Shown here piece by piece: positions 26,975 through 45,767 of a stretch of DNA of 64,000 bases; the stretch's first letter is position 1, and the number at the start of each line of letters is the position of its first letter. The stretch comes from Chitinophagaceae bacterium. GTDB lineage: Bacteria > Bacteroidota > Bacteroidia > Chitinophagales > Chitinophagaceae. A program made the position numbers and the translations under genes. The stretch is taken from contig JAHBTJ010000004.1 in the NCBI GenBank assembly GCA_019638595.1, positions 286,469-350,468 of the forward strand, in the 5' to 3' direction. The notes below the pieces were generated by a model that was not told the DNA's origin, made no database searches, and saw nothing but the letters and a program-made list of their open reading frames with translations.

Positions 26975-27095
26975 GATTTATGATTTTGATTTTGGAATCA
27001 AAATGTTTATTATTTTTTTTATTTGGTAACATATGTAGGTTTTGCAAGAATTGGCTCAATTCCATCCGATTTGAATATTTTTTTTAATTGATTAA

Positions 27096-27551
27096 TTATA
27101 CCCAATTTTCTAAGCTCCAATCATTAATTAAACTTTCAATTAGCTGAGTATCATTCCAAATTCCCCACGGAGACAGCTTCTTTTGCTCTGGCGTCAATGT
27201 TTTAACTAATTGCCTTTGCCAAGTTTCGGTGTCTACCAAATGCCATCCTAGAAACTTTCCACCAACATTATATTCCGTCCTCATTAACTTAGGCTTATTA
27301 AATTTTGAAATAGGAAAATAACTTACATGCTCAACAAGCTTTTTTTTGTCGGCTGCTGAAAGCGGAAATGAAATGATATACCTTTCTTCTAAAGTAACCA
27401 ACTTGTCAAAATTGTCCGGCCTTTTAACATACAATCCCTGTAAAACTCTTATTAATTCTCCCGTCTCACTACTTTTATGAATGAAGTGTAAATAGGCGTT
27501 TCCTTTGGGAGTGATAATCTCAAATATGTCCCCGAGTTTAATTTTTGACAT
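27096..27551 (-). CDS. Probable immunity protein for the RHS-GIY-YIG toxin (151 aa)
   Basis: A 151-aa cytoplasmic protein without signal peptide or membrane segment. Its ATG directly abuts the stop codon of the RHS gene (TAA followed at once by ATG), the organisation of toxin and cognate immunity in polymorphic toxin loci. The sequence begins with a small beta-barrel-like part (KLGDIFEIITPKGNAYLHFI) similar in style to barrel-type immunity proteins, and has a tryptophan-rich C-terminus. I do not recognise the exact family. The base composition is as AT-rich as the toxin tip. Function is inferred from position. Confidence 0.65.
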   Translation of the reverse strand: MSKIKLGDIFEIITPKGNAYLHFIHKSSETGELIRVLQGLYVKRPDNFDKLVTLEERYIISFPLSAADKKKLVEHVSYFPISKFNKPKLMRTEYNVGGKFLGWHLVDTETWQRQLVKTLTPEQKKLSPWGIWNDTQLIESLINDWSLENWV

Positions 27552-30500: not shown

Positions 30501-31826
30501 GTCATATCCATAGGTTGTGATGAAGCCGCGCCCGTTTTTTGCTTTTATTTTATTGCCGTACTGATCGTATTCAAAAGTTTCGACGATATTCAACGGATGT
30601 GTGATCTTAACCAGGTTACCCCTTTCATCGTACTCATAGGAGGTTCTGTTCCCGGCTTTGTCAATATATTCGGTTACCTGGTTAAAAACAGGCTCATACT
30701 GGTATACTGCCGTTTGGTTGAGTGCATTCGTTTCCGAAACGAGATTGCCTGTTTTATCGTAGGTGTATTTCGTTTGTCTTCCGTTGGCATCGGTGATCGA
30801 AGCAATATTGTTGTACTCATCATACGTGTAGGCGTTTTTAAAACCGCAACAATTGCCTGCCCGCTGGATCAGCCTGCCCTTCTCATCAAATGAATAGGTA
30901 GTGGTTGTATTCTTGCTTTCCCCGCGCTCAATAAGGTATGTCTTCAGGTTGGACCCTTCATACATGATCCTTTGCTCTTTCCGGCACGACACCAGCTTTT
31001 CTACCGCTGTGTTTTTGTCATAGGTAATATTGATCAGGAACCTGTTAGGCGTCATCAGGCTCTGCATCATCCGGTTCGCATTGTAAGTATAATTGATCAG
31101 CCCATTTTCGGGATCGCGGACGCTTGCCAGGCACCCGTTTGAAGTATAAGTATATTTGACGCTCCTGGTCTCGGCACCCAATGTCGCTTTAAGTTCCTGC
31201 AACCTGTTACCATTCCACACCAGTTCAACCGTGCGGCCGGATGCATCGCTTATCGAGCCAAGCGCATTACCATTATAGGATAGTATGATCTCATTACCAT
31301 TACGGTCGCGGATGCGGGTGAGCTTTTGGTGTGACGGGTTTTCAAAAAAATATTGTGTTCCGCTTTTTGTACGGTAACGGTACTTCCCGGTTTCATATTC
31401 CACCAGTTGATCAAATATTCCGACCGGCGGCGTAAATACGGCTCCTTTTTTCTCATACAGGTCTTTTCGTCCGTCTTCCCTGTATAAGCGTATGCTGCCG
31501 GTAGCGCTGTCTTTGATATAAAACTGATGATAAGAACATGTCCATCCATAACCAAAACCGGGATCGAAGGCACGATCAGCGCTGTTATAGGAAAAGGAAA
31601 GATCAATGGATAATCCCCTTCCGGGTATAAACATATCCGTACGCTGATAAAAAAGACTGCCGGTAAATGTATTGACTTGCAAGCCTGCCGGACCTTCAAT
31701 ATTTGGACGAACAATATTCTGTCCATTTAAAATGGAAGAAGAAAACAAGAAACAAATAACCAACACATACAGCCTTAACATTGTGTTGTTACTTAACTTG
31801 CTTTTTATTTGTTTAGTCCATTGCAT
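27552..31826 (-). CDS. RHS-repeat polymorphic toxin with C-terminal GIY-YIG nuclease
   Basis: A 1424-aa secreted protein. It has a signal peptide (residues 16-36), an N-terminal DUF6531-like part (VNTFTGSLFYQRTDMFIPG), then a long shell of YD repeats (TKYTYDKTGNLVSE type, about residues 220-1100). The RHS core ends with FYFYRARTYDPEHGRFMQRD, NPIKRIDPFGL at residue 1207. The last 217 residues are the variable tip; about residues 1326-1380 are a GIY-YIG nuclease domain (VVYHSVEAGVTRYVGITNN, with R and H of the catalytic set in LARRAGEHL). DNA for the tip is visibly AT-richer than the repeats, as expected for a swapped toxin. No T9SS sorting domain of its own. The immunity gene follows immediately. 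A longer start was kept; an internal ATG at 31781 would give a more usual signal peptide. Confidence 0.9.
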   Translation of the reverse strand: MQWTKQIKSKLSNNTMLRLYVLVICFLFSSSILNGQNIVRPNIEGPAGLQVNTFTGSLFYQRTDMFIPGRGLSIDLSFSYNSADRAFDPGFGYGWTCSYHQFYIKDSATGSIRLYREDGRKDLYEKKGAVFTPPVGIFDQLVEYETGKYRYRTKSGTQYFFENPSHQKLTRIRDRNGNEIILSYNGNALGSISDASGRTVELVWNGNRLQELKATLGAETRSVKYTYTSNGCLASVRDPENGLINYTYNANRMMQSLMTPNRFLINITYDKNTAVEKLVSCRKEQRIMYEGSNLKTYLIERGESKNTTTTYSFDEKGRLIQRAGNCCGFKNAYTYDEYNNIASITDANGRQTKYTYDKTGNLVSETNALNQTAVYQYEPVFNQVTEYIDKAGNRTSYEYDERGNLVKITHPLNIVETFEYDQYGNKIKAKNGRGFITTYGYDSYGYLQKITNALGFSDSYLYDAWGNLREQTDARNNKTAYTYTKLNQLKDETDATGAKTSLEYDGNGNVKLERDAKGNATQYVYDENDNPVIVRDALGKSTINQYDPFGNLVSSIDASSAETKYTYDNLNRLITKVNPEGERTQYAYDANGNRIAVNYPNGNTVNIQYDVLNRVVQTSDQYGLIAAYEYDASGNKKSERNGNGHIITYRYDALNRLLSVTDPAGNAVFYAYDANNNLLTETDRNNRVTQYIYDEDDRQIQVKDALNHISHSAYDRAGNLESVKDANGNTTQYTYDAVNRKTAERFADNSTRSYEYDKNSNLVKRTDAKGQATEYIYDELDRLNTRRYPGSTENFDYDDADRIILARNPNAEVTFRYDKVGRIISETLNGKVTAYQYSIQQNTKTIVYPGGRVIKRELDGRNRIRNIRDAQKLLAEFSYDNGGKLTNRRYANNTSSGYTYNSTGTLATVTHQPGAFVNLAYSYDKAGNPLQVQFAHRSSTEQYTYDALHQVTGYQQGANNSSYTYDAVGNRSAAQINAASYGYQVNAMNAYSSITGTNSVEPVYDANGNTTNDGRFTYGYDLENRMTAVNNGSILANLYDALGRRIQRRTATDTVFYYYDGQQVIEERNSADAVNATYVWGSWIDDAVNMQRSGEDYFYHANHLGSIAAITNQNGTVSERYEYDVYGKIKVYDADYNLLSRSAIGNNYTYTGRQYEWETGFYFYRARTYDPEHGRFMQRDPLGYVDGLGWYGYVENNPIKRIDPFGLSWIDDFLEANVDNPLLRAYGDADLSWLREINNTLAGYSDALTFGLTNKVREWIGTNSTVNKCSGYYTVGEIIGSIQGIGTASKISKRGLVNGIGYLRRDATRLVENAIRSKEATKAGGIVVYHSVEAGVTRYVGITNNLARRAGEHLTGKGITIEPLMKGLSRADAKAVEQALIDIHGLGKNGGSLRNMINSISPKNPAYDAQLQKGYELLKSIGYN

Positions 31827-31855
31827 ACTTCCATTTTAAAATTTTCGCAAATCGC

Positions 31856-34800
31856 TTATTCCAATAATCTGAATCGTAGCAGCTCACCTACATTAAATGC
31901 TGCCGAATGAATAATTATCGTTCCCGCAGCGCCGGGACGCAGGATTCCGCCTATGCCATCCGGGTCCTGGAATTCCAGCGACAATTCTGTTAATGCCTGT
32001 TCCAGTAATAAGTCACGAATGATTTTCACAATGTCATTAAAGGAGAAGGACACGGGGGATCCTGTCATACTGATCAAGCGTCTTGTCGGAATGGGAATAT
32101 CGACATTGCCGGAATTGCCATACTTTATCACAATCGGGAAAACACGATTTACTCTTACAGCCGGTGGATAGTCAGGTGTAATTTCCAAACCGCCATCGGC
32201 ATCGAGGTTCTGGATGGTGCAGTAAAATCCTTCAGGAGCACTATTACTACCTGTTGAGCGACCACCTGATCCTGATACAACTGAAAAACTTCGGTTAAGC
32301 GTTGCCGTTTCACTATTTTGTTTCACTATCCTAATGTCATATGTGCCAGTATCTGCACCGCTAAGATTAAAAGTTGCAAAAAGCTCCAGGCTGTTTTTTA
32401 CAGTTACAGCATGTGCAGTAATTGTTCCCATTATGGCATCTGTAATAGACACCTGCATGTTATTCTCGAATTTTGCACCTGTTATTTTAACGGTTACAGA
32501 ACCTGTGTTGCCACCTTTATTGCTTGTAACGGTGTGAACCTCAAAATTGATAATCTTAGCCAGCAGGTTTGCAGGTTTTTGCGGCTGGAAAGAGCTGCCT
32601 TTTATGAGTACATAATAAGTTCCGGCTTGTAATGATGGAATGACGATATCCTGATTTGCCTTGAATGGGTTGCGGAATACAAAATCCGCATCTGATGCTG
32701 AAGGCAATGATCCGTATTTAACAAAAAGCTCATTGCTGTTTTTGTGAGTGCTGTCGGCTGTAAGCAAAACCTGTAATGTTTCAGCAGCCAGACTATCCGG
32801 CACCACAATCTTGTAGTAATACTCCTCATCCCGTACAAGCGTTGCATTTACCAACGTGCCAATAGGCAGTTGTGGTATATTCACGCGAATGCTATCCGAA
32901 CTACTTACATTGTTGGATTCGTCACTTTCCAATATATTATTACTTCCATCAGTACGTACTAAAATATGGTTCCCGCCATCCTGAGGCGCTTTCAGCGTAA
33001 CATTGGTACTGATTTGCATTTCGTTAAAAGGTGCAAGATTGATACTATTTGAAACCGTTGATAATACAATATCTTTTTCATCCAACACTGTATCGGTGGA
33101 TGCATAGATGATATGAGTGACATGACCAATAGCGGGATTTTCTCCATTATTTCTTGTTGTCCATTTAACGTTGATGGTAGCTTTGATATCAGCCTCAGCT
33201 ACCGTCTCTATAGAAGATACTACTAAATCTGCAGGCAGTTGCGGTTGAACAAATAATAAAGAAGTCGCCACATTATTATCTTCACCATTATGCTCATATA
33301 CGATATTGTTATCATCGGTTTTAATCAGCAGATAATAATTTCCTTCGGCTGATAATGGGATATTTACAACGATGCTGTCTTCGTAAAATTCGCCTGGTTC
33401 AAGTTTTCCTTTAAAAACATTTTCGCCGACAATGATATCTCCATAATCAGCCGAGCCATCGAGAGAAATGCGAACACGATCTGTCCAGCCACTTCCGGTT
33501 GTTACTGCAACGCCGCTATTAACAACTTTATATCGGATCACAAAAGGCTGTCCGGCATATACGATTGAGGGCGCATTAAATGAAACTGTGAGGTCTGAAG
33601 ATGGGGGCAATGTTACTTGTATCGGCTTTTTAATTTCCACAGTATCTCCATGATCGTCGGTAACACGCAATGACAAAACCTTATGATTATCCGAAGGATC
33701 AATATCATCGTTGCGGTTGTAATAATCTGCTACCATCAACACATAAAACTCACCCTGAATGCCATTGGGAATGGTAACTATTACTTTTTTAGTATAGCTA
33801 CTATCTGTTTGGAGCGGTCCGTATACAATTGTTCCCGTTAAGGTGCGGTCATTGTTATCGGGTATACTGTCGGAAGACAGGAGTGGCATGTCTTCCCAAT
33901 ACTTTGAATAATAGCCCGTCCTTCCGCCTTTGTTTATAACTGTCCATTCTAATGTGATCTGCTCCCCTGCTTTCACCGAATCTACCGTACCCGAAACGGA
34001 CTGCATGACCAGGTCAGCTCTTTGGGGACGGGAGACAAAAAATGGCGGCGTTACCGCTGTATTATTATCTTCTTTCCGGTATTCAAAAATATCGCCTCTC
34101 GAATCCGATACGATGAACAAGTAGCAGTCAGTGCTGTCAATATTTAACTGGCGCAACAGCAACGAACTTATTTCAACGGAGTCCTGTACATCGTAATAAT
34201 CATTACGCAGCAGTGTACGGTTTTGCTCAATCGATTTTAGCCTATAGGCATCCCCTGCAGGCCATGTACTGCTTTTAGAGATGTAAATATTATCAATCCA
34301 GGATTTTGCTACTATATCCGTGTCTCCTGCATTCTGAACGCGGTAAGAGAAACCCAGCTTGTTGTCTGCTACGAAATTCCCTGCCGCTGCATGAATGCTG
34401 ATCGCCTTCAGGTCGGGGAAAGAAGACAAAATAATTTGTACGGGAATGGCAGCACTTTTGTTGTTGGCTTCATCTTCCTCATACTGGGCGCGGTTATAAT
34501 CGGTTTCTACCATCAAATAATGCAATCCGGAAAGTGTATCGGGTATCCTGACAGTTATTTCCTTATTAAGCACACTTCCGGTATCCATCGCTCCGCTAAA
34601 GCTCAGGCTCCCTAACTGCACAGCATTATGGTCGAAAGAAGGCGTCGTTGATATCCTGATAACATCCAGCTGATGCCTGTCGAGGCTTTTGCCCGCACCC
34701 TTATTTTTTATGCTGTACTCAATATTTACCTGGCTACCGGAATACACTGTTCCAGGCGCTTTTACCCCGGTGATTATAAAATCAGGATTAACGAGGGTGA

Positions 34801-37800
34801 TCTTCCGGCTCATCACGTTGTTGTCTTCCTTATTAAACTCAAACACATTATCCTGGTAATCTGTATAAGCATGCAGATACCAATCGCCGCTTGTTGCTGC
34901 CGGAAGTGTGATATCAATTGAATTCGTGTAAGACTGCCCGGTCGTTATCAATGAATTATCCTTAATGAGCGCCTCGGGCTGTATGCTGCTACCTATTAAT
35001 ATAGCTTCTTCACGTTTAAAAACAGCGTTTCTTGATGCATACACCGCATCGTACCAATATTTCTCTGAACGATGGGGCGCCGACGCACCTTCGTTCTTAA
35101 CCACTATGTCAACTTTCATTCCTGAACCGCTGGTAGCCCTGGCAGGAGCAATAAGATCATTTACAGTAAAATCAGGTGGCGGGGTAAGATATATTGCTAT
35201 CGCTTCACTCGCGAGAGTGTTGTTCGTCTCAAATGAAAACTCCAACACCTCATTCTTTGCGTCGGTTACTATATGTATGTAGTGCCGGCCAAATATTTTT
35301 CTCGGTAAAGTCACGTTACACTGAACATCATAGCTGTCGTCTTTTTGAAGATACCCTTTATGCATCACTTCCCCGAGAAGAATGGCTGCATTAATATCCA
35401 ACACTTCCTCTGTGCTCAGGTAAATCCTATCCATCCAACTATTAACACGGGTATCTCCGGTCCCTTTGTTAGCAACAGTATAATTCAACTCAATGGTATC
35501 TCCCGAAAATGCCTCTTGCTTTGCTACCACCTGTAAGACTTTAAGATCCGGGGGTGGCGTAAGATTGATATTGATCGCTTTCACAAAAACATTATCCGAA
35601 AAATCCGCCTCGGGCAGAGACCTGTATTTATTGGTCTCGGCAATCAGATAGTAAGTGTCGCTTACATTTTCGGGAATCGTAATGGGAATCGTAGTTGAGT
35701 AGCTTTCACCGGGTTGCAAAGCAGAAACACGCATCTTATCGCCCAGGAATTTATCGTCTATCCTGTCTGTAGTATCGTCGGTTGAAAACCAGACTGTTTC
35801 CCGCCAGTCCTTTTCACGGGTAGCCGCCTTCCCGATATTTTTAACAACTACCCCAATTTCGGTAGACTGCCCTGAGAACAAATCGTCCCGCACGGTTACG
35901 GATTCGATCACAAGATTAGGCAGGTCGGGCACCCTGAATGTTGAAATACTGCTCTGAACACTTTCACAGGCATTTTTTGCATGTACCTGCCAGTTGTATT
36001 TCCTTCCTGCCACAAATCCGGGAATCTGATAGGAATACAGCGCAACTCCTATCCGCTCAAGATTGCTGATCGCTGCTGCAGCCGGTTTAGCTGTTCCATC
36101 TTCCCATATGTATACATCATACTGTTGCGCGTTGGCAGAAGGCTGCCACGAGAGCAGGAAAGGAAAGTCCTGTATTAAAGTATCGTTCACAGGGTAGAGT
36201 CCTGAAATCTGCCCGGGCACAATGGCGCTGGATACCGCTATTGTAAACGATCTTGAAATTTCAGATCCGGGAGCACATTGAGCACTCGCAGTAACCGTTA
36301 GATCAAATGTTCCATACTCCGTCCAGTTTACAGTTATATTATTACCTGATGTATTAGAAACTGTCCCGCCTCCTGATAAAGTCCACTTAAATGTAGCACC
36401 GGGAATATCACTTACTGAATAGCGCTGACTTCCCTTACAAACATTTCTCATCCCGTTCAGGTCGCCAGGCATTCCCGGTACAACACAAAATACTTTTTCA
36501 TCAAAAACCGGCAGGTAGTTGCTATTGCCATTTTGAACCGCCCGTACCTTTACCTCTCCTGCACCAATGAACAAGAGCAGGTTCCCCTCTACTTTAGCAG
36601 ACCCGCTGACAACATAAAAAGATACCGGCAAGCCACTGCTGGCGCCGGCAGCCAAAGTATAAACAGAGCGTCCGTCAACACTGTCGGGCTGAGCCGTAAA
36701 ATTGATAACCTGAGAAGCCTTGCTTACATTCAACGTCAGTCTTTCAACAGCCGGGCTGTATGATTCATTGCCGGGCTGTGAAGCTTCTATTGTAATGCTG
36801 CCTGCTCCCATAATTGTTACAGTATCGGTTGAAATAGTGGCCGAACCACTGATTATTGTAAACGTAACAGGCAAACCCGAAGAAGCAGCGGCGGACAATC
36901 TGAAAGCTGCATCGCCAAATGTTTTGTCAGGCACAGGAGTAAAAGAAATTGTTTGTGGCAATCCCGTACTTCCTCCCACAATAATACTTTCGGAAAAACT
37001 TCCTGTTCCACATGGATTGACATACCTTACGGTATAAGCTCCTTCCGTTCCTCCTGTTGCATAGGTACTGCCCGTTGCGTTCGCGATCAGTCCACCATCC
37101 CTGAACCATTGATAGTCCGTAACGCCTTGTTCTTTTGAAGCCTGCGTAGCTGACAATAACCCGTTATTGTTGGTTAATGACGGAATAATAGCAGGTGGCG
37201 TGTTAAATACAGCTACCTCTATGGAAGCCTGTGAGCCGTTGCCACAATAATTGCCTGACTGCACAGACAGCGTATAGATACCGGCATTTACCCACTGAAC
37301 AGCGGAACCTGGACCGCTGGTGTCATAATCATTAACTCCCTGCACATACCACCTGTAATCTACACCCGGAGCTGAAGCAACCGAGTACGTTTCCGTTCTG
37401 GCGCAGAGTTCTCTCTCTCCTCCTATTGTAAGTACCTGATCGGGAATCCTGTTTATAAGTAAAACATTGCTAATGCTGCTTGTATCGGCCACGTTGGTAG
37501 ACACAATCCGTATGCGATAGCCGGTGCCGTATGCAGCCGAGGAGGGTATATTAGCTTTAATGGTTCCGGAAGTATCGGATGTTAATGTTCCTATTTCGAC
37601 AGGAGCACTGAATTGGCCAGTAGATGAAGATAGCTGTGCCTTAAAAATATTCCCGGCACTAAACTTATTAGACACTTTGAAAGGAATATCTACTGAACTA
37701 CCTGCACAAATCCGAGAAGCAACTGAGTCAATCGAGATTTTTCTCGGTATTGCGCTTTGTACTGTAATTGTATCTACATTAGTAAGACTCCATACATTCT

Positions 37801-38779
37801 TTTCATCTTTGGCTCTTACATATAATAGATGATTGCCCGCTGGCACACCATCAAGATCAACCTGAAAGATAATATCGCCGGGATTTGCAGCAGGCTGAGA
37901 TATTTGAACAGGAATGCCATTTCCGAAACCCGGATCGCTATCAATGAAATATTCCAGTGCCGTAAGTTTCGCTGAGTCTTTTGTAGAAAAATTATTTTTA
38001 AAGAACGTTTTTACGGCAGTGTGTCCCCAATGGCCATCGGCATTTAAGAAACGCGTATACAGAAGATGAAACCCATCTGACAATGCTGCTATATCAACAG
38101 AAAAAAATAAGTCCTGGTTAGTCGAAATGCTGGTGCCAGGTATTGTGGTAGCGGCACCAAAGCCCGGATCTGTATCAAAAAAATATTCTCCCCGAATGAT
38201 AGAAGACGGAGTGCCGGTGTTTGTAGTCAGCTTATCCTTATAAAATGATTTTACGCCGGTCAGTCCCCACCTGCCATATTCGTCTTGAAAGCGCATATAA
38301 AGACTGTGAAAGCCGTTATCCAGGGATTGTATACTCAAAGGGACATGCAAGCTATCCCTAGAACGCGGAGACAATAACACACGCGTCCCTTTTCCAAAGC
38401 CCGGATCGGTATCGAAGAAATATTCATAGGCATACAACATTGAGATGGCTGAAACCGGAATTGTTTCCTTGTAAAAACTTTTTGAAGCGGTGAGAGACCA
38501 TCCTCCTTTAGCATCTATATCACCTAATGGTGAGTTTTCCTGTGTTTGAAAAGTTCTGACATAAAGTTGATGCATACCTGGTGTAAGGCTGCTTATATCT
38601 AAAGAAAATGATTGTGTGTTATTCAGAAAACCAGGAGGCAACGGTATGGCATTTCCAAATCCGGGGTCATTGTCAACAAAATACTCTGCCTTAGTAATGG
38701 ATTGGCCAAAACCAGCGACGGAAATAAAGCAGACTATTACCGACAGAATGAGGTTGTATGTTAATTTAGATGGAAGCAA
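31856..38779 (-). CDS. Giant secreted CARDB-repeat protein (2307 aa)
   Basis: Signal peptide at the start (LTYNLILSVIVCFISVAG). Four copies of a 75-residue repeat follow (YFxDxDPGFGxG..., residues about 30-345), then an Ig/PKD-like part and two MBG-like modules (TFGDAAFRLSAAASSGLPVT; about 610-760). A PKD-like and a fibronectin-like domain (about 760-945), eight CARDB domains in tandem (about 950-1970), a PPC-like domain (about 1975-2085) and an IPT/TIG-like part complete it. CARDB domains are cell-adhesion-type beta-sandwiches. The protein ends without a T9SS sorting domain. It starts 78 bp after the beta-helix gene and ends 29 bp before the RHS toxin gene, so it is co-transcribed. It might be a surface scaffold or delivery partner for the toxin; this is inference. 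Confidence 0.8.
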   Translation of the reverse strand: MLPSKLTYNLILSVIVCFISVAGFGQSITKAEYFVDNDPGFGNAIPLPPGFLNNTQSFSLDISSLTPGMHQLYVRTFQTQENSPLGDIDAKGGWSLTASKSFYKETIPVSAISMLYAYEYFFDTDPGFGKGTRVLLSPRSRDSLHVPLSIQSLDNGFHSLYMRFQDEYGRWGLTGVKSFYKDKLTTNTGTPSSIIRGEYFFDTDPGFGAATTIPGTSISTNQDLFFSVDIAALSDGFHLLYTRFLNADGHWGHTAVKTFFKNNFSTKDSAKLTALEYFIDSDPGFGNGIPVQISQPAANPGDIIFQVDLDGVPAGNHLLYVRAKDEKNVWSLTNVDTITVQSAIPRKISIDSVASRICAGSSVDIPFKVSNKFSAGNIFKAQLSSSTGQFSAPVEIGTLTSDTSGTIKANIPSSAAYGTGYRIRIVSTNVADTSSISNVLLINRIPDQVLTIGGERELCARTETYSVASAPGVDYRWYVQGVNDYDTSGPGSAVQWVNAGIYTLSVQSGNYCGNGSQASIEVAVFNTPPAIIPSLTNNNGLLSATQASKEQGVTDYQWFRDGGLIANATGSTYATGGTEGAYTVRYVNPCGTGSFSESIIVGGSTGLPQTISFTPVPDKTFGDAAFRLSAAASSGLPVTFTIISGSATISTDTVTIMGAGSITIEASQPGNESYSPAVERLTLNVSKASQVINFTAQPDSVDGRSVYTLAAGASSGLPVSFYVVSGSAKVEGNLLLFIGAGEVKVRAVQNGNSNYLPVFDEKVFCVVPGMPGDLNGMRNVCKGSQRYSVSDIPGATFKWTLSGGGTVSNTSGNNITVNWTEYGTFDLTVTASAQCAPGSEISRSFTIAVSSAIVPGQISGLYPVNDTLIQDFPFLLSWQPSANAQQYDVYIWEDGTAKPAAAAISNLERIGVALYSYQIPGFVAGRKYNWQVHAKNACESVQSSISTFRVPDLPNLVIESVTVRDDLFSGQSTEIGVVVKNIGKAATREKDWRETVWFSTDDTTDRIDDKFLGDKMRVSALQPGESYSTTIPITIPENVSDTYYLIAETNKYRSLPEADFSDNVFVKAININLTPPPDLKVLQVVAKQEAFSGDTIELNYTVANKGTGDTRVNSWMDRIYLSTEEVLDINAAILLGEVMHKGYLQKDDSYDVQCNVTLPRKIFGRHYIHIVTDAKNEVLEFSFETNNTLASEAIAIYLTPPPDFTVNDLIAPARATSGSGMKVDIVVKNEGASAPHRSEKYWYDAVYASRNAVFKREEAILIGSSIQPEALIKDNSLITTGQSYTNSIDITLPAATSGDWYLHAYTDYQDNVFEFNKEDNNVMSRKITLVNPDFIITGVKAPGTVYSGSQVNIEYSIKNKGAGKSLDRHQLDVIRISTTPSFDHNAVQLGSLSFSGAMDTGSVLNKEITVRIPDTLSGLHYLMVETDYNRAQYEEDEANNKSAAIPVQIILSSFPDLKAISIHAAAGNFVADNKLGFSYRVQNAGDTDIVAKSWIDNIYISKSSTWPAGDAYRLKSIEQNRTLLRNDYYDVQDSVEISSLLLRQLNIDSTDCYLFIVSDSRGDIFEYRKEDNNTAVTPPFFVSRPQRADLVMQSVSGTVDSVKAGEQITLEWTVINKGGRTGYYSKYWEDMPLLSSDSIPDNNDRTLTGTIVYGPLQTDSSYTKKVIVTIPNGIQGEFYVLMVADYYNRNDDIDPSDNHKVLSLRVTDDHGDTVEIKKPIQVTLPPSSDLTVSFNAPSIVYAGQPFVIRYKVVNSGVAVTTGSGWTDRVRISLDGSADYGDIIVGENVFKGKLEPGEFYEDSIVVNIPLSAEGNYYLLIKTDDNNIVYEHNGEDNNVATSLLFVQPQLPADLVVSSIETVAEADIKATINVKWTTRNNGENPAIGHVTHIIYASTDTVLDEKDIVLSTVSNSINLAPFNEMQISTNVTLKAPQDGGNHILVRTDGSNNILESDESNNVSSSDSIRVNIPQLPIGTLVNATLVRDEEYYYKIVVPDSLAAETLQVLLTADSTHKNSNELFVKYGSLPSASDADFVFRNPFKANQDIVIPSLQAGTYYVLIKGSSFQPQKPANLLAKIINFEVHTVTSNKGGNTGSVTVKITGAKFENNMQVSITDAIMGTITAHAVTVKNSLELFATFNLSGADTGTYDIRIVKQNSETATLNRSFSVVSGSGGRSTGSNSAPEGFYCTIQNLDADGGLEITPDYPPAVRVNRVFPIVIKYGNSGNVDIPIPTRRLISMTGSPVSFSFNDIVKIIRDLLLEQALTELSLEFQDPDGIGGILRPGAAGTIIIHSAAFNVGELLRFRLLE

Positions 38780-38857
38780 TTGAGCTGATTATAGTTGAGT
38801 ATTATGCATGGTATTCCCTTATGAACTGATGTTTTATTTAGTTGAGTTTTAGGTGGC

Positions 38858-39910
38858 TTAATTAACAGATTTTGCTTTGATCGTAACATTGATAGGCTCT
38901 GTATTACTTCCGATAGGCGTTGCGTCAAAATAATAGATTGCCGGAACAGAGGGAAGCCCCGCAAGAACATAAGGAAGTTGTCCTCCAAAAATACCCGCAT
39001 CAATAGGATTTTGAGCTGTACTTCCATAGGCAGCTCCTTTTGCGGGAGAATCTTCTTTTAAAACCCATTGGCGATCTGAATAAGGTGAGGTTCCAAGACC
39101 GACAAAGACAGAGGTCATGGTAATGTTGGATTTATTTCCATTCTCCGTTCCGAATTGGGTGCTGTTGCCAATATTATTAGTGAAGATGGTTGGAGAGGCG
39201 TTAAAGTTTCCACTCAGCATGATATTATTTTGAAAAGTGGAACCATTGCTTACAGAAACGGAGTTCCTGAATATATTATTCCTGATAATGGCATCGGAAT
39301 TTGCATTCATTTCCAGGCTAGTCCCTCCGGAAATTATATAGTTGTTCGAAATGAGTATTCCTGAACAAGCATACTGAACGTCAATTCTGACGCCGTAATT
39401 TTGCAGGATTAAAATATTATTGACCGGTATATCTGCGCTTACAGTTCTCGGATAAATATAGGCAACAAGGATTATTCCTATATTATATTCTGGATTACCA
39501 CTATAAACTTCATTAAACCGGTTGCGTTTGACGATTATTCCATCTGAATAAATTTCTAATCCGGATCCGTTAAAGTCTAAACCCATTAATACCGAACCTT
39601 TCGATCCTGCGTACATCTTAATAGCACCAACTTTTGAACTTTGAGGTAAATATTGAGAATTGGGATTCTCTGCCAGATAATAACCGGCACCTATGATAAC
39701 AAGTTTTTTTTGAATGGTGGCAGTTCCGTAACTGGTTGGCGATCCTTCCAGGTGAAGCGTGTCTCCGTCTGCTGCCCCGGCGTGAGCCGCCGCGAGTGTA
39801 GTATATTGCGTGGCGATTCCCGGGTTGTTATTTACCCTGATAATCCGGGCAAAACTATTTTCTGCGCGGCACAGCATTGCCAGTAGAAATATGAACGTAC
39901 ATTTCTTCAT
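38858..39910 (-). CDS. Secreted parallel beta-helix protein (350 aa)
   Basis: Signal peptide (CTFIFLLAMLCRAENSFA), then a pectate-lyase-like right-handed beta-helix: repeated short strands with Asn ladders (GILISNNYIISGGTSLEMN, AIIRNNIFRNSVSVS). The family includes many polysaccharide-binding or -cleaving proteins, but no catalytic residues could be identified. It is the first gene of the minus-strand locus up to the 542-aa protein. The last ~40 residues resemble a beta-sandwich end rather than a sorting domain. Confidence 0.65.
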   Translation of the reverse strand: MKKCTFIFLLAMLCRAENSFARIIRVNNNPGIATQYTTLAAAHAGAADGDTLHLEGSPTSYGTATIQKKLVIIGAGYYLAENPNSQYLPQSSKVGAIKMYAGSKGSVLMGLDFNGSGLEIYSDGIIVKRNRFNEVYSGNPEYNIGIILVAYIYPRTVSADIPVNNILILQNYGVRIDVQYACSGILISNNYIISGGTSLEMNANSDAIIRNNIFRNSVSVSNGSTFQNNIMLSGNFNASPTIFTNNIGNSTQFGTENGNKSNITMTSVFVGLGTSPYSDRQWVLKEDSPAKGAAYGSTAQNPIDAGIFGGQLPYVLAGLPSVPAIYYFDATPIGSNTEPINVTIKAKSVN

Positions 39911-40214
39911 AATGAATATATTTAATTCAGTGATGCCGCCAGGAATTTGGCCAAGCCTGTTAAAAAAGCTTCAAAAGGTACTATTGACTATAAAAGAAAC
40001 TGTGGAAAATTGGATTGAAAACTGAATGCAGATGAGACCGTTAATTTTAATCCGATACATAAATATCTTACATTGAAAGTAACGAATCAGCTACATCATA
40101 CAAATTTTATATTCAGTTTTTATTTAAAAAATAATTCTTGCTATCATTGTCTTTTCATCCTAAGCCATGCCTTCATTTGTCTTCACCCGTTTCCTGTTCT
40201 TCCTATTTATACTT
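39911..40214. other. 304-bp gap upstream of the toxin locus
   Basis: No gene. It must hold the promoter of the beta-helix gene on the minus strand, but I found no element matching the TAnnTTTG consensus. No terminator hairpin is evident for the VirD4-like gene that ends at 40215, so read-through into the toxin locus is possible. Confidence 0.4.
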
Positions 40215-41519
40215 TCAGCCTGTCAGGCAATTGTCTTTTTCAATAATTGCCGGTTCATTGGATGACGCGTAGATTTTATTCTGCCTGAACGGGTATTGCT
40301 TAAACAGCCTGTCGGACAGATAATCCAAACGCTTAACTTTTGTAGCCCCCTTTCCAGGTCTGCACATAACAGCGCAGTCTTCCGGAAGATGAAGCAGCTC
40401 TTTTGCCGGAATCTCTCCTATAATTTCGGCAAGTTCTTTTGCCATCAGGTGTGTACGGATACCATACGCCTGCAATACATCGCAGTTGTTGATCATTGTC
40501 GTCCACTCCTTTTCATATAAGAGCTTAAGCTGACCGATATCCTGAAAAATAGTCCATATCCTCAACCCGTAGCCGCGCATCAGGGTAATGGCCGAAATCA
40601 ACGGGTCAATGCGCCCGAGATTCGCCGCCTCGTCAAGTATCATTAATGTCGGTACCCTGGGCCTCGTTTCTCTTTCTGTAAGTATCGAAAGCAGGCACAT
40701 GATCCATAAACGCAGAAGCATGGCAAACGACCGAAGCTTATTGGGCGGAATAACAAGATAGATAGTAACAGGATCGCCCCTTATTAATGAATGGATATCA
40801 AAGGAAGAAGGCCCCGAAAGGCTTTTCATTACACATGGCTCTCCCAGAACAGAAAAGTACTGTTGAACCGTTGATAGCACGCTTGGCCTTGTTTTCTCAC
40901 TGGGCATTTGCAGGTAAGCTGCAATCAGTTCATAAGCGTAGCTGCTTTTTATAACTTTGCTGTCCAGTAGCAGTGCAATGTTATAATCTGTATCATTATT
41001 AAAAAGCCTCTTTCGCACATTATTCAATTCGCGTTCCGTTTCCAGCTCGTGAATGATCAATCCTGCTATCAGCTCCAGGCTCTTGTGATCCCAAAACGGA
41101 TCAGATGCAAAGGTGGGCTGTTCACCCATAATTGCATTTGCAAGCATTACCCCTTGCTGCTCCAAAGGATAGCCGGGGAGCGCCATATCCATTGGATTGA
41201 ACCGGTCCGGCTCTTTTGTTACTACTTTAAACGGGTCAATGATCACTACATTTCCGTAGCGTTTTCTCACCTCAGCAGTAACATTTGCCGCCTCACCTTT
41301 CGTATCAATTACAATGAGGCTTCCGGGATAGGTTAGGCAGGTGGGTATGACGTTGCTCCTTCCCTTACCTGACCCTGTTGGGGCGATCGTCATAAGGTGA
41401 GCGTCTCCGTCATCCGTGATCAACTGATGGTCGGAAAACAACGCCGTCTCGTTTTGAACGAATCCGATCGCCGAGGTTTTCTTACGATCCGCCACCGTAT
41501 AACCTAATAATATTGACAT
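40215..41519 (-). CDS. VirD4/TraG-like ATPase without membrane domain
   Basis: A 434-aa P-loop ATPase of the type IV coupling-protein superfamily. It has Walker A APTGSGKGRSNVIPT at about residue 46, IVIDTKGEAANVTAEVRKRY, Walker B PTLMILDEAANLG at about residue 295, and the sensor-like WTIFQDIGQLKLLY; C-terminal CRPGKGATKVKRLDYL. Normal VirD4/TraG proteins are 550-700 aa with two N-terminal membrane helices; here the protein starts only 45 residues before Walker A and has no membrane segment. No relaxase, VirB4 or other transfer gene is nearby. It is the third gene of an apparent operon with the 425-aa and 663-aa genes. Its job could be DNA or protein translocation, or a defence-like or regulatory ATPase; not known. 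Confidence 0.85.
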   Translation of the reverse strand: MSILLGYTVADRKKTSAIGFVQNETALFSDHQLITDDGDAHLMTIAPTGSGKGRSNVIPTCLTYPGSLIVIDTKGEAANVTAEVRKRYGNVVIIDPFKVVTKEPDRFNPMDMALPGYPLEQQGVMLANAIMGEQPTFASDPFWDHKSLELIAGLIIHELETERELNNVRKRLFNNDTDYNIALLLDSKVIKSSYAYELIAAYLQMPSEKTRPSVLSTVQQYFSVLGEPCVMKSLSGPSSFDIHSLIRGDPVTIYLVIPPNKLRSFAMLLRLWIMCLLSILTERETRPRVPTLMILDEAANLGRIDPLISAITLMRGYGLRIWTIFQDIGQLKLLYEKEWTTMINNCDVLQAYGIRTHLMAKELAEIIGEIPAKELLHLPEDCAVMCRPGKGATKVKRLDYLSDRLFKQYPFRQNKIYASSNEPAIIEKDNCLTG

Positions 41520-41570
41520 AAAAACTGTTTTATATCAGCAATCCCATTCTATACCTTCGATTTCCAGGAA

Positions 41571-42848
41571 TCAATATTGATAGCTGAAATGGCTTCCAAA
41601 ACGGATGGAAAGCCCGAACTGGAACATGAAAAAGTTAGGTAAGTCGTTCGCAGCTTTCCTGCCGGAATGAAATATGGTTGACGTCCATGATCCGAACAGG
41701 TCAACCGGCCCGGCAATTCTATACCTGTAGCCTGCATTTACATACAAAGCCATATCCTTAATATTTCCAACGCTCGTACGTTCAACGATCTTTCCCTTTG
41801 TAACCCCATGCTTTGACATAATTCCTGTTATTATTCCCGCATCAAAAAAAAGAGCGTTTGTAGGGAAATTTCCGCCTCTTTTATACTCTTCAAAAGACCA
41901 GCCAAGGCCTGCGCTCATCAATTGCCAGGAGTAGGCCTGCGACATACCGCTGAATATGGGATCTTCTGCTGATTTAAACACAGCGCTGCTTTGAATAAAA
42001 GACAGTGGTATATAATTCCTGATTCCTGCCTTTCTGTAACCGGAGCGATTGTATGAGTTAAACACATAACTGATTGAAGCTCCATAAGAGGGCTGTGAAA
42101 AAAAATCAAGCCGCTGAATTGTTTTCTGATCACCAACGCCCTTAAACATGCGAACCCGGGTACCTGTACATGCGAACCCGGAAACCTGGAAAAAGCTTTT
42201 TAACTGGGGTTTTATATAATCGCTCATGTTTATGGACGTAGGTCTTATTCTACCTAATTGCTCCTGCGTTCTTTCTATGCATATATCCATAGCTACTGAA
42301 ATTTCATTACTACGATCAAAATAAGACTTGATAAGCCCCTTCATCCTAACGAGCTTTATGTCTTGGGTCAGGTCTTTTTTCCAAATCTCAATCATACCAT
42401 TAATAAAACTGTCAAGGTTCGCTGTTGGCAGACCAAACGCGCCTGCCACAATCCTTAACGATATAATGAAAAGTTCAAATCTCATTCTCTCTGCAAATAG
42501 GGCTTCCGCAAGACCAATGAGAACATGTACCCGTTCCATAAGAAACTTTTCCCTTACCGCGTCGTTTACACACAACACACTGTCAAAAGATTGGGCCGCT
42601 ATATCATATATTGCGGAGACTGTTGTATTTTTAACATTGGAGCGCGATAGAGTAAAATCAACCTGCCTTGATGAATGCGGCCCTAAAATAAAAGGAGCCC
42701 TTTTGCCTACAAAAATATCTTTACTTGCGTCAGACAGGTTGGACACAATGATCTTGTCCCTTCCGGATCTTGATACCTGGATTTGAGAATAGGCAAAGGG
42801 AAAAGACATCATAAATAACAGGGTTGCAAAAAAGAGTTTCATATACAT
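41571..42848 (-). CDS. Secreted protein with barrel-like C-terminus (425 aa), unknown
   Basis: Not recognised as a family. A signal peptide at residues 1-21 (MYMKLFFATLLFMMSFPFAYS) is followed by a small beta domain (about 22-75). A helical central section (about 80-220) and a C-terminal part of about 190 residues come next, with alternating hydrophobic/aromatic strands that ends in FGLSIRFGSHFSYQY. This looks like an outer-membrane beta-barrel with aromatic termination. It lies 51 bp before the VirD4-like gene and 101 bp after the 663-aa gene. Confidence 0.65.
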   Translation of the reverse strand: MYMKLFFATLLFMMSFPFAYSQIQVSRSGRDKIIVSNLSDASKDIFVGKRAPFILGPHSSRQVDFTLSRSNVKNTTVSAIYDIAAQSFDSVLCVNDAVREKFLMERVHVLIGLAEALFAERMRFELFIISLRIVAGAFGLPTANLDSFINGMIEIWKKDLTQDIKLVRMKGLIKSYFDRSNEISVAMDICIERTQEQLGRIRPTSINMSDYIKPQLKSFFQVSGFACTGTRVRMFKGVGDQKTIQRLDFFSQPSYGASISYVFNSYNRSGYRKAGIRNYIPLSFIQSSAVFKSAEDPIFSGMSQAYSWQLMSAGLGWSFEEYKRGGNFPTNALFFDAGIITGIMSKHGVTKGKIVERTSVGNIKDMALYVNAGYRYRIAGPVDLFGSWTSTIFHSGRKAANDLPNFFMFQFGLSIRFGSHFSYQY

Positions 42849-42949
42849 AAGTTTAGAAGTATTAGAGATCGGCTTTCTATACTTATTATGACAAATTCTT
42901 TTTTCTGCTATAGAAATATTAAACCTACTCTTCTGTAGTATTGAAAATA

Positions 42950-44941
42950 TCAGGAAGCTGCTGTTACAGGATTATCATAGTCCCACGGAATATTGTATTC
43001 ATAAGTAGATTGGTTATAAAAATAGCTGGTTTGATGAAGTACCTCCGCCGAATTAGGCTTTTTTAATCCGGATATTTCAAGATTATGGATCAGAAGGGAT
43101 AGCTTCTCTCTTTTAGACGAACCTTCTTCATGCATATCTCTTGAAGTTATAAGCTTCTTGAATAAAGCTTTAAATCTGTATTTTACAAAATCTCTTTCCC
43201 TGCTTATCGACTCGTTCATCCTGGCAGATTGCTTTTCGCCCAATATTTCCCGAACCACCTCCGATTCTTTTGCATTGTTGAATTTTTCATGAAACCCGGT
43301 ATCCTGCGCTTCATAAATTTTTAAAAGGCGGATAATTTGTGAAATGGCGGTCCGGCCGTTCTCTATTTTTTTCTTTGCCGCCGAGTGTGTAAGGCAAACA
43401 GCCAGGTAGAACATCGGATACAGTCCTTCGTTAAAGGACTTTGTATGATTTGGCACCCCTTCTTCAACTGCATTATCTATATATGGTCTGTTTGATCTAT
43501 AAAAACTCACAAGACATGCCACCAGTTCGGCATCCTCCTGAAAAGACTGCTCTTTTTTCAATTCAGTCATAACATGGCTGTTTTTTTCTTCCCTGTCCGT
43601 CAATTTAACCAGCTCGTGAGCATGAACGGTGAACCTGTATCGCGATTTAGCTGAACCTTTAAGGATATATTCGAGATATAGCAGACCCTGAACTATTGGA
43701 GAATTGGGATTATAAGGCACCTCGAAAACAGCTTCTCCATCCAGGATAATGCTAACCTTCGCTGTACCGAAAACAATTGTATTGGTTGCCCCTTTATTGA
43801 GCTTCTGCAAAACCTGGCGATTATCCCGTATCTTATTCTGAAGCTTCTGCATATTTTCTACCAGGTTGTCAACAAATACAGGGTCAACAGATTTGAGTAT
43901 CCTTTCGTAGGCATTTTTTTCAGCGCTCACCTGTAGGCTCCAGCCAAAATATATCAGGTCAAACAGCTTGCAAATTAAAGCCGACGACTGCTCAACAGTA
44001 GCTCCAAACAGCCCCGACTCATGGAACATCGGACAACTGTCTGTTTCGCTGTGAACAAAATCAGCGAACCGGAACGAAGTAAGCCTGAATTCTATAAGGT
44101 ATTTTCCATCCAACAGCTTTAAAGTATACACCGGTATATTATCATTATGAGGCCATTGGGGAAAATAACAAACTTCCTGTCCTTTATTAACATTGTATGA
44201 AACAGGCAGAAACACACTGCATAATACTTTTACAAATTTCATGACAAGTTCCTCCTCACTTGCCGATGCCGCCTTCCTGTCAACAAAAAGGGTCATTTCC
44301 TTTAATATTTTTGTATACAGGTATTTTGATACAATATCACGCGTCCTGAAATATATGGATATCAGCAGGGGATCCCTTTCCGTCTTCAGGATTTCACTGT
44401 TAAGCACCACAATTACAAACGGTGTGCTTAACACGGGCAGTGGAATATAAGAGACTTCTGCACAGTTTGACCTGAACATTAATTGATCAAAAGTATTTCT
44501 GTTAACTTCTCCCCTATGCAGTGACTGGTAAAAGTCCTGCCAAGTTTTCTTTTCATTGCCATCATACATGATTCCGGCACCATCGTACTGAATAACATTT
44601 TCAGATGGTACCCTGGTGAACAAGTGATCAATTTTTTCGTGATCCGCAACAAAACATGAGCTATGCCAGAGTTCTGAATAATACCGCGTATCGCAAAGCT
44701 TATTAAAAATATAGTCTTTTTGTTCCCGGGTAAGATCGCTTTCCTCAATGCTCCGGTTTCTGTACAGGGGTACCATCTTTATGCTCATCTCTCCATCTTT
44801 TTCATCAGTGCCGGTCAAAAAGATCAAAGCCCCCTGCTCCGCCTTCCTGACTTTAGGAATACTATCTAATATTTGCTTTAGCGTATTAATTACATTGGAG
44901 TACATCTGCTGTTCTCCATCCGTTACTTTACCATTGTTCAT
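42950..44941 (-). CDS. Unrecognised 663-aa protein, possible sensor
   Basis: No family recognised. The protein is soluble, without signal peptide or membrane segment. Residues about 15-230 have the rhythm of a GAF-like sensory domain (helix, ALIFLTGTDEKDGEMSIKMV, a strand pair VSYIPLPVLSTPFVIVVLN). The centre carries a second alpha/beta part and then a long helix (NMQKLQNKIRDNRQVLQKL). A short beta-rich section follows (GTAKVSIILDGEAVFEVPYN) that could be a winged-helix wing, and the C-terminal 250 residues are helical and charged. The gene starts the three-gene cluster with the barrel-like protein and VirD4-like ATPase. It may be the cytoplasmic regulator or substrate adaptor of that set; this is inference from order only. 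Confidence 0.6.
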   Translation of the reverse strand: MNNGKVTDGEQQMYSNVINTLKQILDSIPKVRKAEQGALIFLTGTDEKDGEMSIKMVPLYRNRSIEESDLTREQKDYIFNKLCDTRYYSELWHSSCFVADHEKIDHLFTRVPSENVIQYDGAGIMYDGNEKKTWQDFYQSLHRGEVNRNTFDQLMFRSNCAEVSYIPLPVLSTPFVIVVLNSEILKTERDPLLISIYFRTRDIVSKYLYTKILKEMTLFVDRKAASASEEELVMKFVKVLCSVFLPVSYNVNKGQEVCYFPQWPHNDNIPVYTLKLLDGKYLIEFRLTSFRFADFVHSETDSCPMFHESGLFGATVEQSSALICKLFDLIYFGWSLQVSAEKNAYERILKSVDPVFVDNLVENMQKLQNKIRDNRQVLQKLNKGATNTIVFGTAKVSIILDGEAVFEVPYNPNSPIVQGLLYLEYILKGSAKSRYRFTVHAHELVKLTDREEKNSHVMTELKKEQSFQEDAELVACLVSFYRSNRPYIDNAVEEGVPNHTKSFNEGLYPMFYLAVCLTHSAAKKKIENGRTAISQIIRLLKIYEAQDTGFHEKFNNAKESEVVREILGEKQSARMNESISRERDFVKYRFKALFKKLITSRDMHEEGSSKREKLSLLIHNLEISGLKKPNSAEVLHQTSYFYNQSTYEYNIPWDYDNPVTAAS

Positions 44942-45767
44942 GACCTAAAGAATTTGGGTTGTTATATACTTATTCAATATACTAAGCTGACCTCCATGAT
45001 GCAGGAGAATATCTGCAGGCAAAACAGCGCATAGAATATTTTTTTCTGTAACAGGAATTTTCATCCCTGCTCTTACAAAATTTCTATCGCATTACTTCTA
45101 TAGTGAAAATGCTTTTTATGTTGATCCTCTGATCACTAAGCTGGTGGCTGTAAACATACAGGAATGATAAAAAAACGACATCGCAGGTTGTGATTTCATA
45201 ATGCAAGATTTACGAGAAAAGAATTACCGGCCTATTTGTAAGCCTGTAGGAATGGAAGAAAATGAGTACCGGACTAACTTGTGATCATGTGCACCTGATC
45301 AGCATGGAAGGAAACGCGACTTCAATTATTACTCTTCACAATAAACTGTGAACAGACAAAATTGAATCTTGAATAAATGTACAATAAAGCTGGTTACAAA
45401 TCAAAGATTTTAGAAAAAAATATAAAAAATTAATGAAAATATATTTAATACCCTATGATATGATAATCAATACTTTTCAAAAAATTAAACACAGTATTTT
45501 TACTAAAAAAATCGAGTATAAATGCTTTTTCGTTTCAGAAGATTGCCCCCTTATTTTTGATATAGATTTATCGCTTTGGATACACGTTTTTTTACTTAAA
45601 CATATGCTGTATAGCCGTACTATTATTTGGTTACTGACTTTTCACCCCGATTGATGGGTAGTACTGCAGCAATACGATACAGCTTTGCCACGGTTCATCC
45701 GGGCACGGGTTGGTGTGCCGCCTAACATCCTACATTCACACAGCGATGAAAGAACAGCCACAGGCTT
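44942..45767. other. 826-bp AT-rich gap
   Basis: No convincing gene. A 73-aa plus-strand frame (45433-45654) is almost all hydrophobic and AT-driven and is not accepted. The part near 45660-45750 has higher GC and could be a remnant, but nothing recognisable reads through it. It must hold the promoter of the 663-aa gene. Confidence 0.4.

Follow-up and report, generated by a model that had tools for sequence, protein, structure and literature searches.

We found that P0001, a VirD4/TraG-type ATPase encoded in the genome (G000) of a Chitinophagaceae bacterium, belongs to a separate, strongly supported clade of membrane-free relatives of the type IV coupling proteins (T4CPs). The gene lies in the 64,000-nucleotide stretch of DNA analysed here (the window), with two others at short distance on the same strand:

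40215..41519, minus strand: P0001, VirD4/TraG-family (PF02534) ATPase of 434 aa, with Walker A at residues 46-53 and Walker B at 293-297
41571..42848, minus strand: P0002, putative OmpA/Ail-like outer-membrane barrel protein of 425 aa (signal peptide by eye and AlphaFold model)
42950..44941, minus strand: P0003, protein of 663 aa, family undetected, with a single relative found, in congener G533

The first-pass annotation of this locus had described an orphan, membrane-free VirD4-type ATPase, which our analysis bears out, and had suggested that it works with the other two proteins as a functional unit, which is not supported. On balance we favour reading P0001 as an ATP-driven motor of the cytosol, derived from coupling proteins and put to a task other than transfer; as best we can read it, it is not a secretion device and not a recognised defence system. 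A role in a stress or conflict response is possible and conjectural.

The family assignment is firm. P0001 matches PF02534 with E 5.7e-55 (187.5 bits against a gathering cut-off of 20.1) and TraG-D_C with E 1.5e-19, above the curated cut-off, and both its Walker A (APTGSGKG) and its Walker B (MILDE, 293-297) are intact, as first reported. It shares the family match, the Walker motifs and the TraG-D_C region with the T4SS coupling proteins TrwB, TraG, VirD4 and Cag5; its sequence matches the solved Cag5 and, with a three-row profile, TrwB. Unlike those proteins, it lacks the N-terminal membrane domain and sits in a separate clade, and no relaxase-like ORF was found nearby. The reported absence of transmembrane helices was reproduced in a simple hydropathy scan, the method used for all helix counts given here: no helix is predicted ahead of Walker A, and the one hydrophobic segment, at residue 262, falls within the nucleotide-binding domain. 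Because the open frame, of 439 aa, reaches only about 5 codons further upstream than the start, an N-terminal membrane part cannot have been overlooked. P0001 passes the profile cut-off of PF02534 with intact Walker motifs; of the marks of a conjugative T4CP, it lacks the N-terminal transmembrane domain, and the searches given below found no relaxase or T4SS genes to go with it. No match to it was found in viral contigs.

The clade containing P0001 has UFBoot 100 and SH-aLRT 96 in a careful tree of 46 chosen rows and SH-aLRT 100 in a larger tree, where it takes 62 of the 95 rows; its members are spread over at least 8 phyla. The relatives of P0001 were the best 80 of 139, from a scan seeded on two motifs. 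One 77-row tree leaves out the ATPases of 11 clade loci and of L105, all of which are included in the 95-row tree, the helix count and the relaxase seed scan. No helix is predicted before Walker A in 61 of the 62 members, and H41, K52, D72, G75, E76, W143, D296, E297 and R315 are identical in all 62. We also considered whether P0001 is a truncated or decaying TraG; the residues conserved across the clade speak against it, including G6 near the N-terminus, kept in 60 of the 62.

Transfer genes are rare around the clade. Seed profiles, of limited sensitivity, found no relaxase-, VirB10-, VirB11-, TrbB- or TrbE-like ORF in the window, and PF03432 (relaxase) has no match on its 350-kb contig (C34), in agreement with the first reading that the ATPase has no transfer partners; nor is there any sign on this contig of an ordinary conjugative element enclosing the locus. 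In the same seed scan relaxase-like ORFs accompany 1 of 61 clade loci and 8 of 21 non-clade coupling-protein loci (Fisher p 4.3e-5), both counts being lower bounds, as the scan missed a Pfam-detected relaxase beside L099. The single clade case is L094, a long-branch member with a TraA-like ORF alongside. Elsewhere in the clade, VirB11/TrbB-like ORFs lie about 8 kb off at L083 and L086, and the Sinorhizobium plasmid of L027 is typed as conjugative (MOBP, MPF_T), with no transfer genes annotated in the 21 kb shown.

These counts bear on the alternative that P0001 is a coupling protein without TMD that still serves transfer, acting in trans with an element on another contig, C5, C18 or C23. Four PF03432 matches are indeed present in the genome, on these three contigs, and relaxase-like ORFs share the locus with TM-less coupling proteins outside the clade (L110, L114 and L118) as well as with L094. 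There is also a literature precedent: PMC7434980 names a subfamily of "T4CP lacking TMD", some members of which act with small membrane proteins, and TraJ/TraI of pIP501 are likewise VirD4-like ATPases without a membrane domain. That subfamily is described as coupling proteins serving conjugation, some with a small membrane partner, whereas P0001 has neither conjugation genes nor an evident small membrane partner beside it; this comparison is by description, the pIP501 proteins being absent from our tree. Against transfer in trans stand also the low frequency of relaxase-like ORFs in the clade, 1 of 61 as a lower bound, and the element on C23, which carries its own TraG-like protein about 2 kb from its relaxase. 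We regard this alternative as unlikely.

The two companions of the ATPase are rare. P0003, described at first as a protein of no recognisable family, kept that status: Pfam gave no match to the whole protein at E 1 or to either half at E 10 (most weak matches being discarded by the HMMER filters), PADLOC gave none, and the one NCBIfam match (E 0.12) is far below the cut-off. It has no signal peptide and a single segment, at residue 162, of borderline hydrophobicity; its AlphaFold model is uninformative (pLDDT 30), and no match was found in plasmids, phages, viral contigs or the PDB. The only relative found, in congener G533, is identical at 640 of 663 residues.

P0002 has a signal peptide (by eye), a beta N-terminal part, a helical middle and a C-terminal barrel, consistent with the secreted barrel-like protein first proposed. 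Its AlphaFold model, built from a two-row alignment, is of moderate confidence (mean pLDDT 59) with strands across residues 218-418, and Foldseek matched it to OmpA and Ail (best match at E 4.5e-7, with a TM-score of 0.53 normalised by target length), which with moderate confidence suggests an OmpA/Ail-like barrel. Small barrels of this type are anchors or adhesins, not export channels, and P0002, as an outer-membrane barrel protein, more likely just lies next to the ATPase than contributes to a channel. No match was found in plasmids, phages or PADLOC. A viral match (L121; 29% over about 106 residues) was short and weak and was judged due to chance; it sits within a 1539-aa frame adjoining phage-like genes. 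The top relative of P0002 (27%) is in genome G077, in a locus without VirD4 that encodes a kinase, a PP2C, FHA-like and DxSxS proteins (both by eye) and a Tubulin_2-like protein (26.9 bits, cut-off 27; E 3.5e-6). This locus resembles the FtsZ-like 1/VWA/kinase/OmpA operons described in PMC2875224, with which the window block has in common the OmpA-like barrel protein alone. FtsZl1, VWA or kinase genes were not recognised by Pfam among the scanned proteins of the block, and a PF13809 search of the window's genome found nothing, although the same search also missed the Tubulin_2-like protein of G077.

All three genes are genuine ORFs with the ends first given to them, and the same-strand order and short spacing noted then are real: all are on the minus strand, with gaps of 51 nt (P0001/P0002) and 101 nt (P0002/P0003), neither with a terminator-like site on the coding strand. 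Within the barrel-ATPase gap lies a promoter-like match (9/12, at 41574-41546, coding strand), of a kind barely more frequent than chance (28 found, 19.5 expected); the full Bacteroidota-type promoter motif is found at 0 of 8 starts of the block genes. The trio was seen together only in the window's genome and in congener G533, in one collinear block:

25346..45620, no strand: 20-kb block collinear with congener G533, of mosaic identity
40000..43750, no strand: tract near-identical between G000 and G533 (DNA comparison), covering the ATPase, the barrel gene and the 3' end of the gene for the 663-aa protein

Besides these three, the block in both genomes encodes proteins of 350 aa (signal peptide by eye), 2307 aa (CARDB) and 542 aa (possible sorting tail), and an RHS protein with a small downstream gene. 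The RHS C-terminus, which has a weak nuclease-type match, and the small gene have no DNA match between the two genomes (about 26988-28258). The near-identity of the tract is not evidence of function. Among 147 genomes of the family and 395 of the phylum, a search for P0003 hit a single genome each time, the window's own, and one for P0002 hit 2 of the 147 (the window's own and G077) and 2 of the 395, one a weak partial match. The other 10 of the 12 genus genomes lack a P0001 match; the P0002 and P0003 searches covered 2 of these 10. The closest relative of P0001, L073 (55%; among the best 80 of 139), has neither companion in its 18.6 kb. P0002 and P0003 are rare companions of P0001, and a conserved unit is not supported.

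The idea of a reduced secretion or DNA-export machine built from the three proteins can draw on their same-strand order and close, terminator-free spacing, on the barrel-like P0002 and on the retention of all three in G533. However, the device is left unsupported because the families fail to co-occur outside that congener, an outcome that the first-pass annotation had itself named as refuting it; moreover the ATPase is soluble, no inner-membrane part is evident, the barrel resembles the small OmpA/Ail types, and the best relative of P0002 lives in another type of locus. We consider such a machine highly improbable.

In the sister branch, a domain without Pfam match adjoins the ATPase in 13 loci and is fused to its C-terminus in 4, which indicates that soluble partners exist there. 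In L027 and L062 the same domain forms the end of nSTAND1-ankyrin proteins encoded close to clade ATPases, a likeness to STAND (NLR-like) conflict proteins seen in the sister branch only: no match to the domain turned up in the window's genome, in G533 or in five other Bacteroidota genomes, nor within P0003 or P0002 (hmmsearch, hhalign). Among genomes mostly chosen for the ATPase, 18 of 25 matches to the domain lie by or in an ATPase, two of them pieces of one frame; this sample is preselected. In the class of G551 the domain occurs in 25 of 385 genomes (38 matches), and of 30 stretches read there the ATPase core was present solely in G551's own. We rejected the idea that the domain marks the ATPase exclusively, since in the 385-genome sample it mostly has no neighbouring ATPase; this leaves the fusions and the adjacency untouched.

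In Runella (annotated) and in Dyadobacter and Flavivirga (by eye), the ATPase has caspase-like, TIR-like and TPR genes in its vicinity. Among 139 neighbours in P0001's branch the commonest families listed are GNAT (6), PTR2 (5) and TPR (5), with 3 caspase matches, and PADLOC matches around the clade mostly involve one member per model among the matches listed. These Pfam and PADLOC tallies, which carry no background control, draw on 25 plus 28 of 61 clade loci, taking proteins of 100-1300 aa within three genes on either side (one long protein (A3) and five (A4) left out for size), and the tally control covers 17 of 21 non-clade loci, with two long proteins left out. An enrichment in defence islands across the clade is not claimed: conflict genes are scattered, and ordinary families are equally or more frequent among the first 25 listed in each tally.

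HerA-type ATPases act in defence systems, and P0001 and its clade might, in a comparable role, drive a conflict or anti-phage response. The caspase-, TIR- and TPR-type neighbours, the partner domain at the end of nSTAND1-ankyrin proteins and the nuclease-type match of the downstream RHS protein point in that direction, and PMC7159879 and PMC8195603 report FtsK-type ATPases in conflict systems. Yet the conflict genes are scattered, PADLOC models are mostly matched by single members among the matches listed, and none of the window's three proteins has a PADLOC match better than E 0.049, the value of the sole P0001 match (Cas3b). This possibility is a doubtful one, if less so than transfer in trans. 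More specifically, the clade could power undescribed intracellular surveillance systems, in which soluble VirD4-like hexamers derived from conjugation would act on invading DNA; one branch would share its adaptor domain with STAND-ankyrin sensors, and P0001 with P0003 would be the Bacteroidota version with another partner. We hold this to be about as unlikely as transfer in trans.

The motor recruited for a non-transfer task, the reading we favour, is supported by the clade support, the lack of predicted helices before Walker A in 61 of 62 members, the conserved residues, the few relaxase-like ORFs, the spread over at least 8 phyla and the soluble partners of the sister branch. P0001 would be a cytosolic, probably hexameric NTP-driven VirD4/TraG motor from a clade that lacks a membrane domain and would have departed from the conjugation machinery. 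It would most likely move along or remodel DNA or a DNA-protein complex in the cell, and lineage-specific soluble partners may load or control it; here P0003, the next-but-one gene, whose product has no signal peptide, would be the best local candidate. The transfer-type context of L094, L083, L086 and L027, and the ordinary families commonest among the neighbours, count against this motor, as do the negative searches for the partner domain in the window's genome, G533 and the five other Bacteroidota genomes and its mostly solitary occurrence in the wider sample.

T4CPs have hitherto been known as a gate in the membrane that serves conjugation and type IV secretion. The existence of this clade implies that conjugation may not be what many genes annotated as "type IV secretory system conjugative DNA transfer family protein" indicate, and that the VirD4 motor was probably put to new use within the cell, as the HerA and FtsK motors have been. 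Some members have caspase-, TIR- and STAND-type neighbours, which offer a testable lead to the use the clade makes of it.

Three ORFs make up the locus, as the first-pass annotation had stated:

40215-41519, minus strand, VirD4/TraG-family ATPase (P0001, 434 aa)
41571-42848, minus strand, OmpA-like barrel protein (P0002, 425 aa)
42950-44941, minus strand, 663-aa protein (P0003)

P0001 is indeed a VirD4-type ATPase (PF02534, E 5.7e-55). Both Walker motifs are intact, and no membrane helix is predicted ahead of Walker A. Since its reading frame extends only ~5 codons 5' of the start (open frame 439 aa), no membrane domain has been overlooked. P0002, described as a secreted, barrel-like protein, carries a signal peptide (by eye) and a barrel-like C-terminal part (strands 218-418) in an AlphaFold model made from an alignment of two rows, mean pLDDT 59; Foldseek matches this model to barrels of the OmpA/Ail type (best E 4.5e-7). 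P0003 was said to have no recognisable family, and we found none with Pfam or PADLOC, while the sole NCBIfam match was at E 0.12; no PDB chain, plasmid or phage record matched, and its AlphaFold model was uninformative (pLDDT 30).

The proposal that the three genes form a conserved functional unit did not survive comparison. Across 147 genomes of the family and 395 of the phylum, the families fail to co-occur beyond the window's own genome (G000) and that of a congener (G533), where a single block, collinear with window positions 25346-45620, contains all three. Relatives of P0003 were restricted to its own genome in both sets; P0002 matched its own genome plus G077 in the family; in the phylum it matched its own genome and, weakly and partially, G328. 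Among 12 genomes of the genus, 8 of which lay outside the P0002 and P0003 searches, P0001 occurs only in G000 and G533. In the family it matches 12 other genomes, the top-scoring protein being 33% identical, and the six proteins examined further (L004-L009) carry membrane helices. Its closest relative (55%), among the best 80 of 139 gathered by scanning genome contigs with a three-row alignment, comes from a Chitinophagaceae MAG (L073), whose 18.6-kb locus holds no relative of P0002 or P0003. The P0002 relative in G077 is 27% identical and its locus lacks VirD4; P0001 has no match in that genome. Because P0003 was found only in its own genome and G533, the 18.6 kb of L073 lack both other genes and the G077 relative of P0002 stands without VirD4, the three-gene cluster is not a conserved device.

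The G077 locus (L020/L021) encodes two FHA-like proteins and a DxSxS protein (by eye), a PP2C, a Ser/Thr kinase, an RDD protein and a Tubulin_2-like protein (E 3.5e-6, slightly below the cut-off). It resembles the FtsZ-like 1/VWA/kinase/OmpA operons described in PMC2875224, and is apparently a Bacteroidota version of that system. This large locus also contains an actin/Hsp70-like 1203-aa protein (by eye) and WG-repeat proteins.

The 20-kb block shared with G533 has a mosaic structure. Tracts that are identical or differ at few positions (25346-26250, 29250-31000, 34000-37000, 37750-38500 and 40000-43750) are separated by patches diverging roughly 5-20%, locally more, and ~26988-28258 has no DNA match to G533. 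Synonymous divergence between the two genomes was 0.014 for the ATPase, 0.011 for the barrel gene, 0.127 for P0003, 0.18 for a 350-aa gene, 0.28 for a CARDB gene and 0.38 for an RHS gene. The genes on the window's right flank, the only flank compared, lie on other G533 contigs at 78-80% identity, and the G533 block has neighbours other than those in the window; the block has thus undergone rearrangement with respect to its flanks. The tracts of near-identity suggest that the two species have exchanged DNA recently; the mosaic identity says nothing by itself on function. The RHS-repeat protein (27096-31826, minus strand, 1424 aa) has a weak C-terminal GIY-YIG match (E 0.0027), and its end and the small gene directly 3' of it have no DNA match in G533, a pattern known from polymorphic toxin-immunity loci. 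Just outside the block's edge lies a Fic/DOC-domain protein (23392-24897, minus strand, 501 aa, E 1.9e-11).

Could the ATPase belong to an ordinary conjugative element? It had been reported to lack transfer partners, and this was borne out: PF03432 matched no relaxase on the window's contig (C34, 350,468 bases), and profiles seeded from relatives found no relaxase-, VirB10-, VirB11-, TrbB- or TrbE-like ORF in the window. The same profiles revealed no such ORF in the 40 kb that surround the block's copy in G533. The four PF03432 matches in G000 lie on contigs C5 (two), C18 and C23, the last ~2 kb from a second TraG-like protein. No sign of such an element was found around the locus, on a contig whose end coincides with the right edge of the window and with seed profiles that are less sensitive than Pfam and missed the relaxase of locus L099.

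A 95-row tree of the scan relatives, coupling proteins (T4CPs) from the same family as the window and six references from conjugative plasmids placed P0001 in a clade of 62 rows (SH-aLRT 100), recovered in a careful tree built from 46 selected rows (UFBoot 100/SH-aLRT 96). No helix is predicted before Walker A in 61 of the 62 members; the catalytic residues are identical in all 62, and a glycine of the N-terminal region is kept in 60. The 61 other loci, many from MAGs, span at least eight phyla.

Clade loci by phylum
Pseudomonadota, 34
Planctomycetota, 9
Bacteroidota, 5
Verrucomicrobiota, 3
Spirochaetota, 2
Actinomycetota, 2
Acidobacteriota, 1
Gemmatimonadota, 1
Without assignment, 4

Coupling proteins without transmembrane helices also occur outside the clade (L097, L100, L102, L110, L114, L116-L119 and L159, not L115), some with relaxase-like ORFs in their locus, so the clade is not marked just by having lost its membrane domain.

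The seed scan found relaxase-like ORFs at 1/61 clade loci (L094, a long branch) versus 8/21 non-clade loci (L103, L105, L106, L107, L110, L111, L114 and L118; Fisher p 4.3e-5, with loci not independent and both counts lower bounds). Pfam tallies agree on this scarcity: Relaxase (6) and MobA_MobL (5) appear among 90 control neighbours and are absent from the 25 families listed, each for 139 and 134 clade neighbours. VirB11/TrbB-like ORFs were present at two clade loci (L083 and L086, ~8 kb from the ATPase) and at 2/21 non-clade loci. The closest plasmid relatives of P0001 are a Runella protein and Sinorhizobium proteins. The Runella gene adjoins caspase-family and TPR genes, and its plasmid is typed non-mobilizable; the Sinorhizobium locus inspected has patatin, ankyrin and TPR genes nearby, and its plasmid is typed conjugative. 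Apart from the ATPase, the 20-21 kb around these two hold no annotated transfer genes. Conflict-type genes are scattered in clade loci (caspase, 3/139 neighbours), and PADLOC models, among those listed, mostly matched one neighbour each. Beside members of P0001's branch, the most frequent families are ordinary, such as GNAT (6), PTR2 transporters (5), TPR (5) and TldD (3 of 139).

Some individual loci are more elaborate. In Spirosoma sordidisoli (L054, 11206-14800) the ATPase is directly followed by a 234-aa protein whose glycine-rich end is Cas6-like; next come a gene resembling a reverse transcriptase and short direct repeats reminiscent of a CRISPR array (by eye throughout); PADLOC RT models matched one member of the neighbour set. 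TIR-like and caspase-like genes (by eye) surround the ATPase on the same strand in Flavivirga aquimarina (L067, 6700-14314). Dyadobacter (L070, 9387-11539) and Runella (L026, 6601-8891) have a small gene upstream of the ATPase, with a YbjN domain in Dyadobacter (E 2.8e-10) and no match in Runella, and share a 119-133-aa gene downstream, then TPR and caspase-like genes.

In a sister branch, the protein directly upstream of the ATPase (191-599 aa) carries a ~240-residue partner domain at 13 loci; two examples had no Pfam match. The domain is fused to the ATPase C-terminus in L072, L076, L082 and L087, and forms the end of large proteins in L027, L062, L074 and L084, two of which are nSTAND1-ankyrin proteins:

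L027, 2728-7695, nSTAND1-ankyrin protein (nSTAND1 E 8e-36) with terminal partner domain
L062, 11238-16853, nSTAND1-ankyrin protein (nSTAND1 E 1.7e-38) with terminal partner domain

As judged from sequence, the fusions argue for a physical partnership of domain and ATPase in this branch. The domain occurs in 16 of 33 chosen genomes, G000, G533 and five other Bacteroidota among them lacking it. It is present in 25 of the 385 genomes of G551's class, and only one of 30 domain stretches read, G551's own, had an ATPase core; being mostly without an adjoining ATPase there, the domain is wider than the pair.

A "T4CP lacking TMD" subfamily is on record (PMC7434980), and TrwB and MobB lose their function when the TMD is deleted (PMC7431656). 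FtsK-type ATPase domains are described in STAND and conflict systems (PMC7159879, PMC8195603), the searched text of which does not mention VirD4/TraG; "orphan" and "standalone" are absent from the available text of a T4SS nomenclature review (PMC12857230). Titles and abstracts of the open-licence literature on orphan or TM-less coupling proteins, and on VirD4 in the context of STAND, conflict or anti-phage systems, yielded no description of the clade, which may have been described elsewhere. P0002, as a predicted outer-membrane protein, could reach P0001 only through a linker across the envelope, and the locus shows no evident candidate for one. From these sequence-level observations we infer the substrate, oligomer and pathway of P0001: it would be a motor ATPase of the cytosol that was co-opted from coupling proteins, with P0003 the local candidate for a soluble partner, and may act on nucleic acid within the cell under the control of such partners.
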